Positions 1,085-9,681 of a stretch of 11,552 nucleotides of DNA are shown here, one piece after another. The stretch is from Coprothermobacter sp. GTDB taxonomy: Bacteria; Coprothermobacterota; Coprothermobacteria; Coprothermobacterales; Coprothermobacteraceae. The stretch covers positions 7,765-19,316 of the forward strand of contig DMVM01000060.1 of the NCBI GenBank assembly GCA_003476705.1, written 5' to 3'. The notes beneath the pieces are model-generated. The model worked only from the letters and a program-made list of their open reading frames with translations, searched no databases and had not been told where the DNA came from. The stretch's first letter is position 1. Each line of letters begins with the position of its first letter. A program made the translations under genes and the position numbers.

Positions 1085-1786
1085 ATGAGAATACAGAAGT
1101 TCGAAGTGGTGGAATCCACAAACGACCTTGCTCGCAAATATATTTTGGATGGTAACAAAGAACCTGCGGCTTTTGTGGCGGAGCATCAAACCAGGGGCAA
1201 AGGTCGTCTGGGTCGAGTGTGGCAAGACGATCCAGGGAAAAGTCTGTTGGTAAGCTTCGCTTTACCAGGCAGTGTCTACAGTAATCCACCTTTGCTTGGA
1301 CTTGCTACTGCTGTTTTTGTTGGGGAGTATTTGGATTTACTCCCACTTCCCTGGGAAACCAAGTGGCCCAATGACGTACTAATCCAGGGTAAGAAGGTGG
1401 CAGGCATTCTGCCTGAAGGAATCTGGGAAGATGGACTTCTGGGTGTGGTGGTGGGTGTTGGCATCAATGTTAATCAAGATGAGTTTCCTAACGATACTGA
1501 GGCAACCTCTATAAAACGCGTATTCGGACAGGCTTTGCCAGTAGAACAGCCACTCATGTATCTAATCTACCGCATGGAGCAGGTGTACGAGCAAATCGTT
1601 GATTTTTCGGAAATCCTTACCACGTTCAAAGACAAATTCAGATCCATGGGAAAGAAACTGCGGGTGCGTAGCAACGATCAAGTTTGGGAAGGAACCGCTG
1701 TGGACATCGAAGAAGATGGAAGTTTGGTCCTTAACATGGAAGGTAAACTGGTAACGTTAGGTTGGGGTGAGGTTACGCTGCGGTAA
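1085..1786 (+). CDS. birA: Biotin--[acetyl-CoA-carboxylase] ligase, short form without HTH
   Basis: A 233-residue biotin protein ligase. It activates biotin with ATP to biotinyl-AMP and transfers it to a lysine of biotin carrier domains (acetyl-CoA or pyruvate carboxylase, decarboxylase pumps). Visible signatures: ESTND near residues 10-14, the nucleotide-binding loop GKGRLGRVW at 38-46 (a variant of GRGRxGRxW), KWPND at 93-97 and KKVAGILPE at 103-111. A small SH3-like C-terminal domain fits from about residue 190. The protein begins directly at the catalytic domain, so the N-terminal winged-helix repressor domain of E. coli-type BirA is absent (a class I ligase), and it should not regulate biotin synthesis itself. 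Start: ATG at 1085 is preceded by AGGGGGTG at good spacing; the in-frame GTG at 1064 lies upstream of that site and is rejected. It overlaps the 3' end of the convergent methyltransferase gene by 14 bp. Confidence 0.93.
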   Translation: MRIQKFEVVESTNDLARKYILDGNKEPAAFVAEHQTRGKGRLGRVWQDDPGKSLLVSFALPGSVYSNPPLLGLATAVFVGEYLDLLPLPWETKWPNDVLIQGKKVAGILPEGIWEDGLLGVVVGVGINVNQDEFPNDTEATSIKRVFGQALPVEQPLMYLIYRMEQVYEQIVDFSEILTTFKDKFRSMGKKLRVRSNDQVWEGTAVDIEEDGSLVLNMEGKLVTLGWGEVTLR

Positions 1787-2501
1787 TTTTCTCAAACACA
1801 GCGACAGTCCTCGGGGCTTCAGGGTAAAAAGGGTTGCCATTTAAGTCGCGGTAAGCAACTCTGAGGAAAAGCTGATAAGGTTCTGCCAAAGCCTGCAAAT
1901 CTTCTAAAGTATAGAGTCTTAGCTGCCTGGTTACCTTGTAGGTGCTCCCTGCATCCAGAAGAAATTGCCGTGTTGTGGTAAGTTTGCTACCTTTGAGCGC
2001 ATGCTGGTCAAGAACGTAACCACCATCAACTCTTTCCCACCACTTTCTGCAAAAGCGTGCTTGCCAACCTTCAAGGTTATCTACATCCAGCAAAAGTAAA
2101 CCACCAGGCGAAAGGAATTCTGACAATTTTCTGAACAGCTCTTGTTCTTCCTGATCACTTTGATCCCAGCCAATGCTGGTCCACAAGCTCACCACAGCTG
2201 AAAACTGCTTGAATACATTGATATTTTGCAGTTTGTTATGTATGATACGATTTGACCACAAAGGATTACGTTCTTTGAAAATTTGCACAAAAAACGGGTT
2301 CGGTTCCACCCCCCAGGCATCCAACCCCCAACGAAGGAAGTACTGCAAGTGACGTCCCCAACCGCAACCCACGTCCAAAATGCTGCGAGGCGAATCAAGT
2401 AGCTTCAGCGCAAGACGTGCCTCCCGCTCAGAGCGCTGCTCCAGTTTAGTTGCAAAGCATTTGTAGTAAAGCTCACCAAAGTAGTCAATACCATTTTCCA
2501 T
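1773..2501 (-). CDS. Class I SAM-dependent methyltransferase, substrate unknown
   Basis: A 242-residue Rossmann-fold methyltransferase. Counting from ATG 2501, motif I is ILDVGCGWGRH (41-51), the acidic residue that holds the SAM ribose is in GVEPN (64-68), the motif IV region is SLWTSIGW (105-112), and the post-I beta strand is SPGGLLLLDVDN (131-142). The C-terminal third has aromatic-rich strands (YRDLNGNPFYPEAPR) that probably bind the substrate, which I cannot name. The frame is open further upstream to a GTG at 2555, but those 18 codons lie in the right end of a transposable element and are unlikely to be native. The ATG at 2501 has no Shine-Dalgarno at normal distance: the only one, AGGAGGT inside the element end, is 15 bases away. 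No promoter of its own is visible, so expression may come from the element. The last 14 bp overlap birA on the opposite strand. Confidence 0.8.
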   Translation of the reverse strand: MENGIDYFGELYYKCFATKLEQRSEREARLALKLLDSPRSILDVGCGWGRHLQYFLRWGLDAWGVEPNPFFVQIFKERNPLWSNRIIHNKLQNINVFKQFSAVVSLWTSIGWDQSDQEEQELFRKLSEFLSPGGLLLLDVDNLEGWQARFCRKWWERVDGGYVLDQHALKGSKLTTTRQFLLDAGSTYKVTRQLRLYTLEDLQALAEPYQLFLRVAYRDLNGNPFYPEAPRTVAVFEKITAA

Positions 2502-2511
2502 ATAAAAGCAT
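2485..2511 (-). CDS. Eight-codon mini-ORF at the element junction (tentative)
   Basis: ATG at 2511 stands five bases after the GGAGG of the element's right end and encodes MLLYGKWY before a TGA at 2487-2485. It overlaps the methyltransferase start (2501) in another frame. The Shine-Dalgarno is better placed for this ATG than for the methyltransferase ATG, so ribosomes may load here and reinitiate. It may equally be untranslated; there is no evidence for a functional peptide. Confidence 0.2.
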   Translation of the reverse strand: MLLYGKWY

Positions 2512-2522
2512 TGTGACCTCCT

Positions 2523-2542
2523 CCCACCCCTAAAGGGGTGAG
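2523..2542 (-). repeat. Right-end hairpin of the IS605-type element
   Basis: On the minus strand CTCACCCC pairs with GGGGTGGG around a TTTA loop, giving eight pairs including one wobble. The guide tetranucleotide GAAG abuts its 5' foot (2546-2543) and the cleavage tetranucleotide TCAC (2516-2513) lies just 3'. In IS605 elements such a subterminal hairpin is what TnpA binds in single-stranded DNA; in the RNA it would be the last stem before the guide. Confidence 0.7.
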
Positions 2543-2566
2543 CTTCCTCTTTCACCGAGGAAAGCT
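2541..2566 (-). repeat. Penultimate stem-loop of the omega-RNA scaffold
   Basis: AGCTTTCCTC pairs with GAGGAAGCT with one bulged T around the loop GGTGAAA, a nine-pair stem on the minus strand. It overlaps the base of the right-end hairpin by two bases and contains the GAAG guide and the TGA stop of the tnpB remnant, so forming it may compete with guide/cleavage-site pairing. Confidence 0.5.
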
Positions 2567-2680
2567 TACGCGGATGTAGGGGCTGCTCCCCCGTATCTGC
2601 GCAGCGGCCTTCCTCTCCGGAGGCTTGAGTTCGGGCCGGTCCAGCCCTACGGCCTGTTCGAGACCCAGGCCAAACTTTCT
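2552..2680 (-). pseudogene. tnpB remnant, last 42 codons only
   Basis: The frame from 2680 to the TGA at 2554-2552 reads RKFGLGLEQAVGLDRPELKP and continues to the C-terminal residues RVSFPR. It has no start codon and is closed upstream by two TAA codons. A proline- and charge-rich tail right before a hairpin-bearing right end is what TnpB (OrfB) genes look like. Everything needed for catalysis (RuvC aspartates and glutamate, zinc ribbon) is missing, so no nuclease is made. The part probably survives because the DNA doubles as omega-RNA. Identity as TnpB is inferred from position, composition and tail character. Confidence 0.55.
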
Positions 2681-2682
2681 TT

Positions 2683-2688
2683 ATTATA
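2683..2688 (-). promoter_or_regulatory. Candidate -10 box inside the element
   Basis: A perfect TATAAT on the minus strand (2688-2683) sits exactly at the join between the AT-rich left end and the GC-rich tnpB tail. The -35 region is poor (TGTAGA at 16-base spacing, three of six matches). Initiation near 2676 would give the omega-RNA and could read on into the methyltransferase gene, which shows no other promoter. Confidence 0.35.
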
Positions 2689-2745
2689 CTACGAATGTTA
2701 CTTCTCTACACCATATCTAACAGTCTAAGCCAGGATGCCTTTCAT

Positions 2746-2765
2746 CCCACCCTTAAAAGGGTGGG
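2746..2765 (-). repeat. Left-end hairpin of the IS605-type element
   Basis: CCCACCC pairs with GGGTGGG around TTTTAA on the minus strand. Guide AAAG (2769-2766) abuts the 5' foot, and TTAC (2787-2784) is 18 bases further upstream. Two accessory small hairpins flank it: CCCG/CGGG at 2780-2770 and GGATG/CATCC at 2747-2733. Confidence 0.7.
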
Positions 2766-2783
2766 CTTTCCCGGCACGGGATT

Positions 2784-2788
2784 GTAAA
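2784..2788 (-). other. Target/TAM site TTTAC flanking the element's left end
   Basis: On the minus strand TTTAC (2788-2784) immediately precedes the element. IS605 elements insert 3' of such a tetra- or pentanucleotide, which stays in the empty site and serves as the TnpB target-adjacent motif. It is formed by the tail of the terminator U-tract. Confidence 0.6.
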
Positions 2789-2826
2789 ACAAAAGAGGGC
2801 GCCTGTAGGTTTTCATGCGCCCTCTT
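2786..2826 (-). terminator. Rho-independent terminator of the tkt-to-SIMPL gene cluster
   Basis: On the minus strand AAGAGGGCGC pairs perfectly with GCGCCCTCTT (2826-2817 with 2802-2793) around a 14-base loop and is followed by TTTTGTTTT. It lies 57 bases after the stop of the SIMPL gene and is the only strong terminator in the window. On the plus strand there is no T-run after the stem, so it acts one way. Confidence 0.88.
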
Positions 2827-2882
2827 CCCCAGCAAGTGACTTGCTAAACGTTCTTACAGCACAGTACTCTTTTAGTGCCCTA

Positions 2883-3614
2883 TTATTGATTGATGACGTA
2901 AGAAACAGATACACTGACGCTTATTTCTTGAACACCGGGCATGATGTTGATGTCCTGTGCCATTGCTTGTACATCCTTGGATAATGAGCTCTGGCTTTGC
3001 CAAATTGGTGTAAAGCTATCTAAAACCTGTACACTGGCTAATTTACCTGGTGTGGCATGCTCAACAGACAAAGCCACTTCAGCTTTGTGACGAGCGTCAG
3101 CCATGGCATCCTTGATAAGCTGGTCCATGACAGAAGCGGTCTTCGAGTACTCGTATGTGATGCCGCTCATTCCAGTAGCACCCGCAGTAAATGCTGCATT
3201 AATGATTGAAGGAAGGTCTTCTACGGAAGACTTAACAGAAATCTGCACAACTGCCCTGTATCCCAAAAGCTCAGTACCTTTTTCGGTGTAGTCGTACCAA
3301 GGGTAAACGCTTACATTACTGGTGTTTATGTTCTTTTCGTCCTTTACAATATCTTTTACAGCTTCCACTACGGCGTTGGTACCTTTGGTTACCTCAGCCA
3401 TGGCCTTCGAAGCTGTCTCCTGCGTTGTTTCTACTACAAACTTCACCGTACCGATGTCAGGAACAACTTCAACTTTTGCTATACCATTTACTGAAATGGT
3501 GGGTGTTTCCTGTGAATCCGTGCTGGCTGCTCCTACCGGTAATAGCCAAGCACCTAGTAAAACTGCCGCCACCACTGCCAATGCCAGCAGTGGACTGCTG
3601 TAGAACTTTTTCAT
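2883..3614 (-). CDS. Secreted or membrane-anchored SIMPL-domain (DUF541) protein
   Basis: A 243-residue exported protein. Residues 1-30 form a signal sequence (MKKFYSSP followed by the hydrophobic run LLALAVVAAVLLGAWLLPVG) with probable cleavage near GAA-STDS; it lacks a lipobox cysteine. Residues about 38-243 match the SIMPL/DUF541 family: ISVNGIAKVEVVPDIGTVKFVVET at the front, YRAVVQISVKSSV with GYRA-type strands in the middle, DAMADARHKAEVAL, and a closing beta strand EISVSVSVSYVI. SIMPL proteins in bacteria are cell-surface or periplasmic proteins of unclear biochemical role, some linked to oxidative stress. ATG at 3614 is set by GGAGGT eight bases upstream, but that site is buried in a hairpin (3620-3653), so translation may be conditional. 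It is the last gene of the cluster, 45 bases after the CvpA-like gene, and is followed by the terminator. Confidence 0.87.
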   Translation of the reverse strand: MKKFYSSPLLALAVVAAVLLGAWLLPVGAASTDSQETPTISVNGIAKVEVVPDIGTVKFVVETTQETASKAMAEVTKGTNAVVEAVKDIVKDEKNINTSNVSVYPWYDYTEKGTELLGYRAVVQISVKSSVEDLPSIINAAFTAGATGMSGITYEYSKTASVMDQLIKDAMADARHKAEVALSVEHATPGKLASVQVLDSFTPIWQSQSSLSKDVQAMAQDINIMPGVQEISVSVSVSYVINQ

Positions 3615-4132: not shown

Positions 4133-4780
4133 TCAAAAACTATCCTTTTGGTCACTAATGCTGCCTGCATTACTGCTGGGGCAGCAATCCTTTAAGGGGC
4201 ATTTGTCACACAAGGGCTTTCTTGCCAGACAAATAGTTTTACCATGTCTCATAAAAGAATAGGAAAGCCTACCCCAGTACTCTGCTGGGAGCATTTTTCT
4301 GATTTCTTCTTCAGCTACATCGGCATCTTTGAAACTAAAACCCAGTCGGTTCAGTACTCTGAGTACGTGACGGTCCACAACCACAGCAGGCTGACCGAAA
4401 GCGCCCAGCACAACCATGGACGCCGTTTTCTTACCCACACCCGGAAGTTTTGTCAGATCTTCAATGCTGTTTGGTACCTCACCATGAAACTCCTCAACCA
4501 ACGCTTGACAACACTCTTTTAGTCGCTTGGCTTTGGTCTTGTAAAAATTCACCGGATAAATGGCCTTTTCCAGCGTTTCCACGCTGGCTTCGGCCATAGC
4601 TTGCGCAGATGGAAACTTAGGGAAGAACCCTTTGGTGATTTCGTTAACGGATTCATCGCTAGCCTGAGCAGCCAGCAGAGCGGCTATGAGAAGCTCATAA
4701 GGGCTACTAAATTCCAGGTCAAAATGCAAATCGTTCTTGTGGGTTTCAGATAAGATCTCCACTGCTTTTTGCAGCTCCAA
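4133..4780 (-). CDS. nth: Endonuclease III (DNA glycosylase/AP lyase)
   Basis: A 215-residue base-excision-repair enzyme that removes oxidised pyrimidines and nicks the resulting abasic site. Helix-hairpin-helix LPGVGKKTA spans 112-120 with the catalytic lysine K118; the catalytic aspartate is D136 in VVVDRHVLRV. LLAAQASDESVN (36-46) is the damage-pocket segment equivalent to LLSAQATDxSVN. A complete [4Fe-4S] cluster motif, C-x6-C-x2-C-x5-C, uses C184, C191, C194 and C200. Length is normal. The start is TTG 4780 with GGGAGG nine bases upstream; there is no ATG nearby. The first 35 bases overlap the 3' end of the upstream RNA methyltransferase gene, so translation is likely coupled. A 15-residue polar tail after the cluster is unremarkable. 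Confidence 0.95.
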   Translation of the reverse strand: MELQKAVEILSETHKNDLHFDLEFSSPYELLIAALLAAQASDESVNEITKGFFPKFPSAQAMAEASVETLEKAIYPVNFYKTKAKRLKECCQALVEEFHGEVPNSIEDLTKLPGVGKKTASMVVLGAFGQPAVVVDRHVLRVLNRLGFSFKDADVAEEEIRKMLPAEYWGRLSYSFMRHGKTICLARKPLCDKCPLKDCCPSSNAGSISDQKDSF

Positions 4781-9012: not shown

Positions 9013-9681
9013 TCACTTATCTACGGTGTTCTTGACAGCGTACCACAGGTAAAGATCCATTTCACCTAAATCCGCCTGAAGCTCCTGCGCAATGGGAATA
9101 AGCAACTGTTCATGCGCTTCATAGCGAGCTCTGGTCCAGCCTTTGGGCATGTTTTCGATAAGCTTGTAGTGGTGCATGAGCCTGAGGATGTGCTTGTCAA
9201 GGATTGCCACGTCAAGTAACCCCACGTTTCTTAGGAAGTGACTGGCTTCTTTCCAACCGATGCCCTTAAAGTTTTTGACCAACATGCTGCGAGCCTCTGG
9301 TGAAGACAGACTACCGTTCACGATTGAAGGAAGTAAATGAGCTCGCTGACGGTTTTCCAGGATGAAACGAGCACGTTGGTAAGCAAAGCGGTGCCCCACA
9401 CTACGTAAAGCATCCTCAAGATCCTCAGGAGGCATGGTTAGGAAACCCTTGTCTATGAGCTCCTGAGCACGCATTCCACCTTGAGCGCTCCAGTTCGCAG
9501 TAAGCACACAAAAACAGAGTTCGGAAAACAAATTACTCACATCATGGCGTGGGAAGTTTTTGAACTGTGCAATGCGCTGAGAAACAAGGTCCTTAGCTTC
9601 GTCCTTGACAAGACTTACAAGCTCTTCTAGTGAGTTAGCTATTTCTAATCTTGCGGAAAGAGCACTGGAATTTCGCGCCAC
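9013..9681 (-). CDS. ogg: Archaeal/thermophile-type 8-oxoguanine DNA glycosylase/AP lyase (Ogg2-like)
   Basis: A 222-residue helix-hairpin-helix glycosylase that excises 8-oxoguanine and cleaves the abasic site. The hallmark block is KGIGWKEASHFLRNVG (139-154) followed by DVAILDKHILRLM (157-169), giving the catalytic lysine K144 and aspartate D162. ELCFCVLTANWSAQGGMRA (54-72) is the conserved front segment. There is no iron-sulfur cysteine set, unlike Nth. This subfamily (N-glycosylase/DNA lyase, Ogg2) is best known from archaea and thermophilic bacteria such as Thermotoga. The start is GTG 9681 with an excellent GGAGGAGA seven bases upstream. It overlaps the sfsA 3' end by 37 bases. Last gene of its operon; no strong terminator follows. 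Confidence 0.93.
   Translation of the reverse strand: MARNSSALSARLEIANSLEELVSLVKDEAKDLVSQRIAQFKNFPRHDVSNLFSELCFCVLTANWSAQGGMRAQELIDKGFLTMPPEDLEDALRSVGHRFAYQRARFILENRQRAHLLPSIVNGSLSSPEARSMLVKNFKGIGWKEASHFLRNVGLLDVAILDKHILRLMHHYKLIENMPKGWTRARYEAHEQLLIPIAQELQADLGEMDLYLWYAVKNTVDK

Follow-up and report, generated by a model that had tools for sequence, protein, structure and literature searches.

A 271-bp segment of the Coprothermobacter sp. DNA that we analysed (the window, a stretch of 11,552 nucleotides) is a complete, non-autonomous, ends-only element of the IS200/IS605 type, PATE-like in organization and lying on the minus strand between positions 2513 and 2783. Its transposase and nuclease genes are gone, and both ends, a promoter-like box and the full guide-RNA part have been retained. 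The original prediction had described a solo omega-RNA at 2513-2676, that is, a guide-RNA scaffold kept without its TnpB nuclease gene. The latter part of that description stands: the right end is kept and the core is deleted. The word "solo" has to be given up, because the scaffold is bounded by both transposon ends, with 2676 not the limit, and belongs to a three-copy family. The left end, which runs with its hairpin to 2783, rules out a bare or truly solo RNA gene and makes the object an ends-only element. The features are as follows (a slash marks an insertion point).

2513..2783, minus strand: non-autonomous IS200/IS605-type element, 271 bp (copies C123 and C143; empty sites in genomes G002 and G003)
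2783 (left end) and 2513 (right end), minus strand: element ends
2784..2787, minus strand: TTAC target site, the expected TAM, outside the left end (left flanks; empty site TTAC/AATGC in G002)
2746..2765, minus strand: left-end near-terminal hairpin CCCACCCTT-TT-AAGGGTGGG (by eye; similar in C55, C83 and C98)
2683..2688, minus strand: -10 box TATAAT of the ancestral tnpA promoter (comparison with C55, C83 and C98)
2674..2682, minus strand: junction left by the loss of tnpA and most of tnpB (comparison with C55; AAAG microhomology by eye)
2513..2673, minus strand: right end, 161 bp, with the last 40 tnpB codons in a decayed frame plus the 3' flank (94% identical to C55)
2513..2655, minus strand: omega-RNA scaffold covered by covariance model R1, with the conserved core GTAGGG from 2650
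2523..2542, minus strand: terminal hairpin of the right end, with 10 nt between it and the guide boundary at 2513/2512 (folding, covariation)
2497..2512, minus strand: built-in guide, 16 nt of flanking DNA, overlapping the start of the host gene (empty site in G002)
1773..2501, minus strand: host gene, coding for a protein with a methyltransferase domain; its ATG (2501) lies 11 nt past the right end (Pfam PF13489/PF13649)

The right end terminates ...GGAGGAGGTCAC at 2513, and the flank AATGCTTTTATATGG begins at 2512, directly beyond it. Near-terminal palindromes are present (2746-2765 and 2523-2542), the element ends are by eye not complementary, and none of the 25 inverted pairs listed out of 38 lies inside the element. 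At 271 bp the element is too short for a transposase, and its tnpB frame is broken. The minus-strand frame that had been read as a tnpB tail is indeed open for 42 codons, the homologous coding part of an intact copy being 40 codons plus a stop; the claim that it represents the end of tnpB is likewise upheld, since the genome also contains an intact tnpB whose 3' end, together with the right end that follows, is 94% identical (152/161 bp) to positions 2513-2673 (minus strand). No Rfam family matched the window at the gathering threshold. Elsewhere in the window, two separate open reading frames (4133-4780 and 9013-9681, minus strand) look by eye like endonuclease III/HhH-GPD glycosylases.

We searched the element's own genome (G000; 79% complete, 163 contigs) with window positions 2480-2800 and, with E allowed up to 1, obtained 11 matches. 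Apart from the window itself, the three strongest have E = 1e-67 to 3e-115. These E values, two precise empty sites and an R1 score of 162 bits together argue that the features are not due to chance. Both ends and the same core deletion occur in three copies, namely the window copy, C123 and C143, which stand at unrelated sites; identity to the window copy is 93% and 92% for the other two. The intact relative, on contig C55, is a 1791-bp element with both ends, between which two proteins are encoded intact, TnpA (133 aa; Y1_Tnp, E 1e-41) and TnpB (412 aa; PF07282, PF01385), and its right end is 94% identical to that of the window. Both ends of the window element are thus common to C55, as in a core-deletion derivative of an IS605-type element. 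Two further matches (C83, C98) terminate in the left end plus 25 tnpA codons and a third (C81) starts within the right end; these are probably further full copies broken by assembly, and the weak matches C31 and C9 are likely chance. The C143 copy adjoins cold-shock-protein-like sequence (L014 1-575; two sub-threshold Rfam cspA matches), and in C55 the intact element lies within the 3' end of an open reading frame (L012 12-560) that resembles a solute-binding protein by eye.

Finding the same core deletion in three copies at unrelated sites suggests that the deleted form has probably been mobilised. The three mini-elements differ from the full copies at four fixed positions, two per end, and by eye they lack the GGG found after AAAG ahead of the C55 right end. 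By left end the mini-elements are nearest one another (0.93-0.94). By right end they do not form a group: that of C123 is 0.968 identical to C55 and 0.984 to C81, against 0.962 to the window copy and 0.936 to C143. A simple single origin does not fit this position of C123 nearer the full copies; the three are most simply explained by a single deletion and subsequent movement, and recombination or independent deletion may instead account for them. The match in C57 comprises the last 40 bp only. At that locus (L018 1034-1074, about 41 bp) TTAC stands directly before the terminal right-end hairpin and the scaffold is absent, so C57 is possibly a minimal ends-only copy; it was rejected as a proven one, the corresponding place in G002 being diverged and giving no clean empty site.

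Precise empty sites were found for two of the three mini-element copies. The methyltransferase ortholog of G002, which we take to be C. proteolyticus, is 97% identical to that of the window, and its empty site for the window copy reads ...TTTTGTTTTAC/AATGCTTTTATATGG. The C143 copy also has an empty site in G002, TTAC/CAATAAAGAAGCC; none was found there for C123, where the match is limited to the flank beyond the right end. The element is also missing from G003, with the site TTTTAC/AATGG, and from G001, apparently Coprothermobacter platensis, with a different site sequence. At both sites with an empty allele a target duplication is absent, and insertion occurred 3' of TTAC. The proposed TTTAC motif is partly retained: TTTAC precedes the element in 4 of 6 left flanks, and the motif common to all six is the shorter TTAC.

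The TATAAT box that had been placed directly before the scaffold is present at 2688-2683, 38 nt before the scaffold core, from where transcription would start near 2676. It is not newly gained, since it corresponds to the ancestral -10 box of tnpA, with the tnpA ATG 6 nt after TATAAT in C55, C83 and C98; acquisition of a new promoter is excluded by the box standing in the same place before tnpA of the full copies. Related, -10-like hexamers at this place are TAAAAT in L035, TATGAT in L036, TATAAT in L038 and TATAAG in L040, and in the other mini-elements TATAAT (C123) and TATAAA (C143). The -35 sequence for the window box is poor, and a promoter consensus scan of 2300-3000 flagged the plus strand alone, at two sites.

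The tnpB tail and right end are RNA-like, as judged from fourfold-site agreement of 80% versus 40% and from covarying stems. We compared six tnpB genes (L037 from residue 11; a seventh, L040, left out, having stops in the frame used) at fourfold sites whose codons begin with the same two bases. They agree in 194/242 comparisons (80%) over the final 40 alignment columns (C55 codons 374-412) and in 583/1455 (40%) over the rest of the gene. By bin, synonymous-codon agreement is 0.29-0.57 up to codon 374, 0.61 at codons 375-380, 0.91 at codons 381-387 and 0.63-0.70 thereafter. The deletion point in the window is codon 373, and constraint is strongest downstream of it, from about codon 381. In the RNAalifold consensus of 11 right ends, at least one compensatory change is seen in 10 of the 47 pairs, four of these ten lying in the terminal hairpin (alignment columns 124, 125, 126 and 128). 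The window RNA alone folds only moderately better than its shuffles (z = -2.0; 8/200 equally good), and covariance model R1, whose training set includes the window row, scores the window at 162.3 bits. Permutation tests of pair retention after TnpB loss were not significant for the own copies (P = 0.22, 0.20, 0.10) and gave a nominal P = 0.014, uncorrected for the number of tests, pairs being kept better than random, for a separate mini-element of C. platensis (L022), part of whose divergence may predate TnpB loss. Selection on the scaffold after TnpB loss was set aside as a claim, the own copies being not significant and L022 nominal only.

The idea that the built-in guide addresses the empty site is borne out in G002, where TTAC plus the first 15 guide nt equals the empty site with 0 mismatches over 19 bases, which is what the anatomy requires of a guide directed against the empty allele. 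In its own genome, guide plus TTAC matches only the element's own junction, with 1 mismatch (TCAC), and no second target with up to 3 mismatches was found in that 79% complete assembly. There is no target in G001, and G003 has one match with 3 mismatches, not at the orthologous site. A second target across G000-G003 was accordingly rejected, the matches being the own junction, the G002 empty site and this non-orthologous G003 site only.

The original prediction had named beforehand, as what would count against it, the lack of any TnpB with a matching C-terminal tail in the species; an intact TnpB with such a tail is encoded by C55 in the same genome. It is the only TnpB found there with the query used, the other four matches being tails. 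We aligned it with others, 14 TnpB sequences in all, hand-picked from 120 listed proteins, two loci and C55. Asp207 of RuvC-I is present in 14/14, the Glu position of RuvC-II is occupied by Gln (Gln287) in 14/14, and the RuvC-III motif DRDxN is found in 12/14 including C55 (DRDVN), with DRNxN in P0049 and P0060. The C55 protein thus departs from the canonical RuvC D-E-D triad, and the Gln at the RuvC-II Glu position makes its cleavage activity uncertain. TnpB clades with a rearranged RuvC-II have been described, and one RII-r5 member is active, according to the part of Nety et al. 2023 (PMC10278001) used here.

TnpB-less scaffolds recur, in C. platensis and in three stretches of the distant genome G018. 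A search of 386 genomes with R1, scoring up to eight candidates in each, gave at least 49 matches in 20 genomes, with at least 8 each in G018 and G097, and 48 of 49 regions were viewed (one G046 copy was left out); R1 finds only scaffold-keeping copies, and these counts say nothing of how often the scaffold is lost. The separate C. platensis mini-element (L022 1455-1636) has TTTAC, a left-end hairpin and the scaffold directly after it, starting at about codon 378-381, and has no promoter region. It lies at the 3' end of a helicase-like open reading frame, cas3-like by eye, in a partly masked locus, and near CRISPR-like repeats. In G018 (one contig, 1.54 Mb), three of the eight matches listed share a 316-bp stretch with left and right ends (L089 1542-1857, L090 1546-1861 and L093 832-1147, the last on the minus strand); the three are 99-100% identical at unrelated sites, have TATAAT 149 nt before the scaffold core, and are uncertain in their exact first base owing to a shared TTTAGG. 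The other five of these eight match TnpB, among them L091 and L092, which bear TnpB, are closely related to the 316-bp mini-elements and are alignable over 1764 bp. The middle 125 bp of the 316-bp stretches has at most 14 bases matching L091 or L092. Three of the eight matches listed for G097 have the TnpB tail only (L103, L104, L105), and L104 and L105 carry, within putative boundaries, TATAAT 36 nt ahead of the core. Of the five G149 matches, two are tail only and share 644 bp. Because a different TnpB could escape the three TnpB queries, we left uninterpreted the 12 R1 loci that match none of them (L068, L069, L072, L073, L074, L076, L077, L087, L099, L100, L107 and L109).

We consider it likely that the window element is a PATE-like deletion derivative that TnpA would move in trans, whose scaffold RNA would be made from the tnpA promoter and whose retention would be favoured through use of that RNA by the C55 TnpB. 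An internal deletion would have taken tnpA and most of tnpB out of an intact IS605-type element, so that a left end carrying the hairpin and the -10 box of tnpA is now joined to a right end that encodes the omega-RNA scaffold. TnpA from intact copies such as C55 could then act on the hairpin ends and move the element to new TTAC sites, as the copies and empty sites suggest. From the tnpA promoter, which now adjoins the 5' side of the scaffold, transcription would yield about 165 nt of RNA followed by a guide templated by the flanking DNA. Paired with this guide, the C55 TnpB would bind or cleave the empty allele (TTAC plus AATGCTTTTATATGG), and action there would favour retention of the element. 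An ends-only element of this kind would rely on intact copies for both movement and retention. Weighing against this reading are the poor -35, the TATAAA of C143, the promoter region missing from the C. platensis copy, the RuvC-II Gln of TnpB, the right-end identities of C123, the lack of significant pair retention in the own copies and the possible scaffold-less remnant C57. We infer transcription, TnpB use in trans and cleavage from an arrangement of ends, scaffold, promoter box and guide whose anatomy they fit.

As to function, such a guide RNA acting in trans is about as likely as an inert passenger, that is, an element that moves through its hairpin ends only, its scaffold having been kept by the chance position of the deletion end and giving no working guide RNA. 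Taken by itself we regard the inert passenger as a serious explanation, just short of an even chance. Ends-only IS605 elements of Haloquadratum go down to 52 bp and are perhaps mobile, in the part of PMC3119063 that we draw on, and C57 may be a minimal scaffold-less form in the window's own genome, which suggests that the scaffold may be dispensable for movement. The -10 sequence is changed in one of the three own copies (C143), and these copies lack significant pair retention. Against an inert passenger, the scaffold is kept in separate lineages, although a covariance search detects only scaffold-keeping copies, and pairs are retained in L022, with the reservation about its divergence given above.

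A different emphasis would make the element a portable promoter or leader, its main effect being on the methyltransferase gene, co-transcribed from the tnpA promoter. The element does lie 11 nt before the ATG and just behind a terminator-like hairpin (2784-2827, by eye), with GGAGGAGG near the methyltransferase start; the gene, however, is present in G001, G002 and G003 without the insertion, and a terminator scan of 2300-3000 found none, so we think this effect improbable. That the RNA represses a target together with a cleavage-dead, TldR-like TnpB, as the Gln at the RuvC-II Glu position of the only TnpB found might suggest, is most improbable, given that the guide finds only its own junction in the 79% complete G000, that this TnpB sits within a mobile element with tnpA and keeps the RuvC-I Asp and RuvC-III DRDxN, and that the RII-r5 member mentioned above is active.

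Returning to the guide RNA in trans, TnpB and the RNA it uses probably aid the persistence of the element that carries them. If the proposed mechanism is true, an element of RNA and promoter only would make this benefit usable in trans by nuclease-less copies, which could help account for the persistence of ends-only copies. More tentatively, and with some doubt, ends-only IS605 elements may form a class of stand-alone guide-RNA transposons that keep a promoter and a complete omega-RNA, depend in trans on TnpA for movement and on TnpB for retention, and direct the guide of each insertion against its own empty site; some archaeal HgcC RNAs might be the same, which would offer a possible identity for this orphan RNA family.

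Archaeal HgcC RNAs have long been known and, to our knowledge, have no function assigned. The HgcC model (RF00062) matches the right ends studied here at 28.9 bits at best, below its gathering cut-off of 50, and HgcC and the TnpB-family right ends share a 3' hairpin followed by GAGGAGGUCA. In five genomes, at E up to 10, 18 of 21 HgcC matches overlap R1 matches and C57 overlaps a weak one; the same loose search gave matches in 10 of 14 control genomes, above the cut-off in one. Sub-threshold HgcC-like right ends or omega-RNAs were seen at L014 567-693 (minus strand), L103, L104, L105 and L109. HgcC is archaeal (Thermococcales and other archaea), whereas the window element has a bacterial right end with sub-threshold likeness only. 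In the part of PMC4247193 consulted, 5 of 7 HgcC RNAs of T. kodakarensis are confirmed as expressed, HgcC1-3 being transcribed in sense within transposase genes and HgcC4-5 expressed without one. For P. furiosus the same source describes HgcC as antisense to the transposase gene, and that copy is therefore a misfit with a sense omega-RNA. We offer as a hypothesis that HgcC could be an archaeal TnpB omega-RNA, and no paper naming both HgcC and TnpB was found in the literature searched.

A guide RNA kept by ends-only elements was not found in the titles and abstract openings of the papers listed on TnpB together with MITE, PATE or non-autonomous elements, which include the two PATE studies compared below; an earlier description may exist in Meers 2023, reportedly on the selfish spread of TnpB, or in Altae-Tran 2023, said to concern TnpB classification. 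A term search of a review of prokaryotic MITEs (PMC10969869) returned neither TnpB nor IS605.

It is instructive to set the element beside known systems, each as described in the portion of the source that we cite. The PATEs of Haloquadratum walsbyi (PMC3119063, a 2011 study that predates omega-RNA) likewise have near-terminal palindromes and neither terminal inverted repeats nor target duplication, are too short for a transposase, and include some IS605-type core-deletion derivatives; one of them, HqIRS71, also keeps a disrupted C-terminal coding part. In contrast to these PATEs, the window element has promoter and complete scaffold side by side, and an intact partner. A PATE-like copy of about 271 nt in Halanaerobium hydrogeniformans joins a left-end hairpin to the last 58 nt of tnpB and the whole 160-nt right end (PMC7290912); it differs in being a single copy with only 28 nt of left end, so that the tnpA promoter is presumably gone, and a guide-RNA role is not discussed in the portion cited. 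In IS200/IS605 TnpB/omega-RNA systems (PMC10278001), as here, the scaffold ends at the right end with a hairpin within 10 nt of the guide, the guide lies outside the element, and TAMs are at most 5 nt, mostly AT-rich and shared with TnpA; there the nuclease and RNA come from one locus, whereas the window has the RNA part without the gene. A PATE-like element is thus of a known kind, and what is unusual here is the promoter-plus-scaffold arrangement, the intact partner in the same genome and the recurrence.
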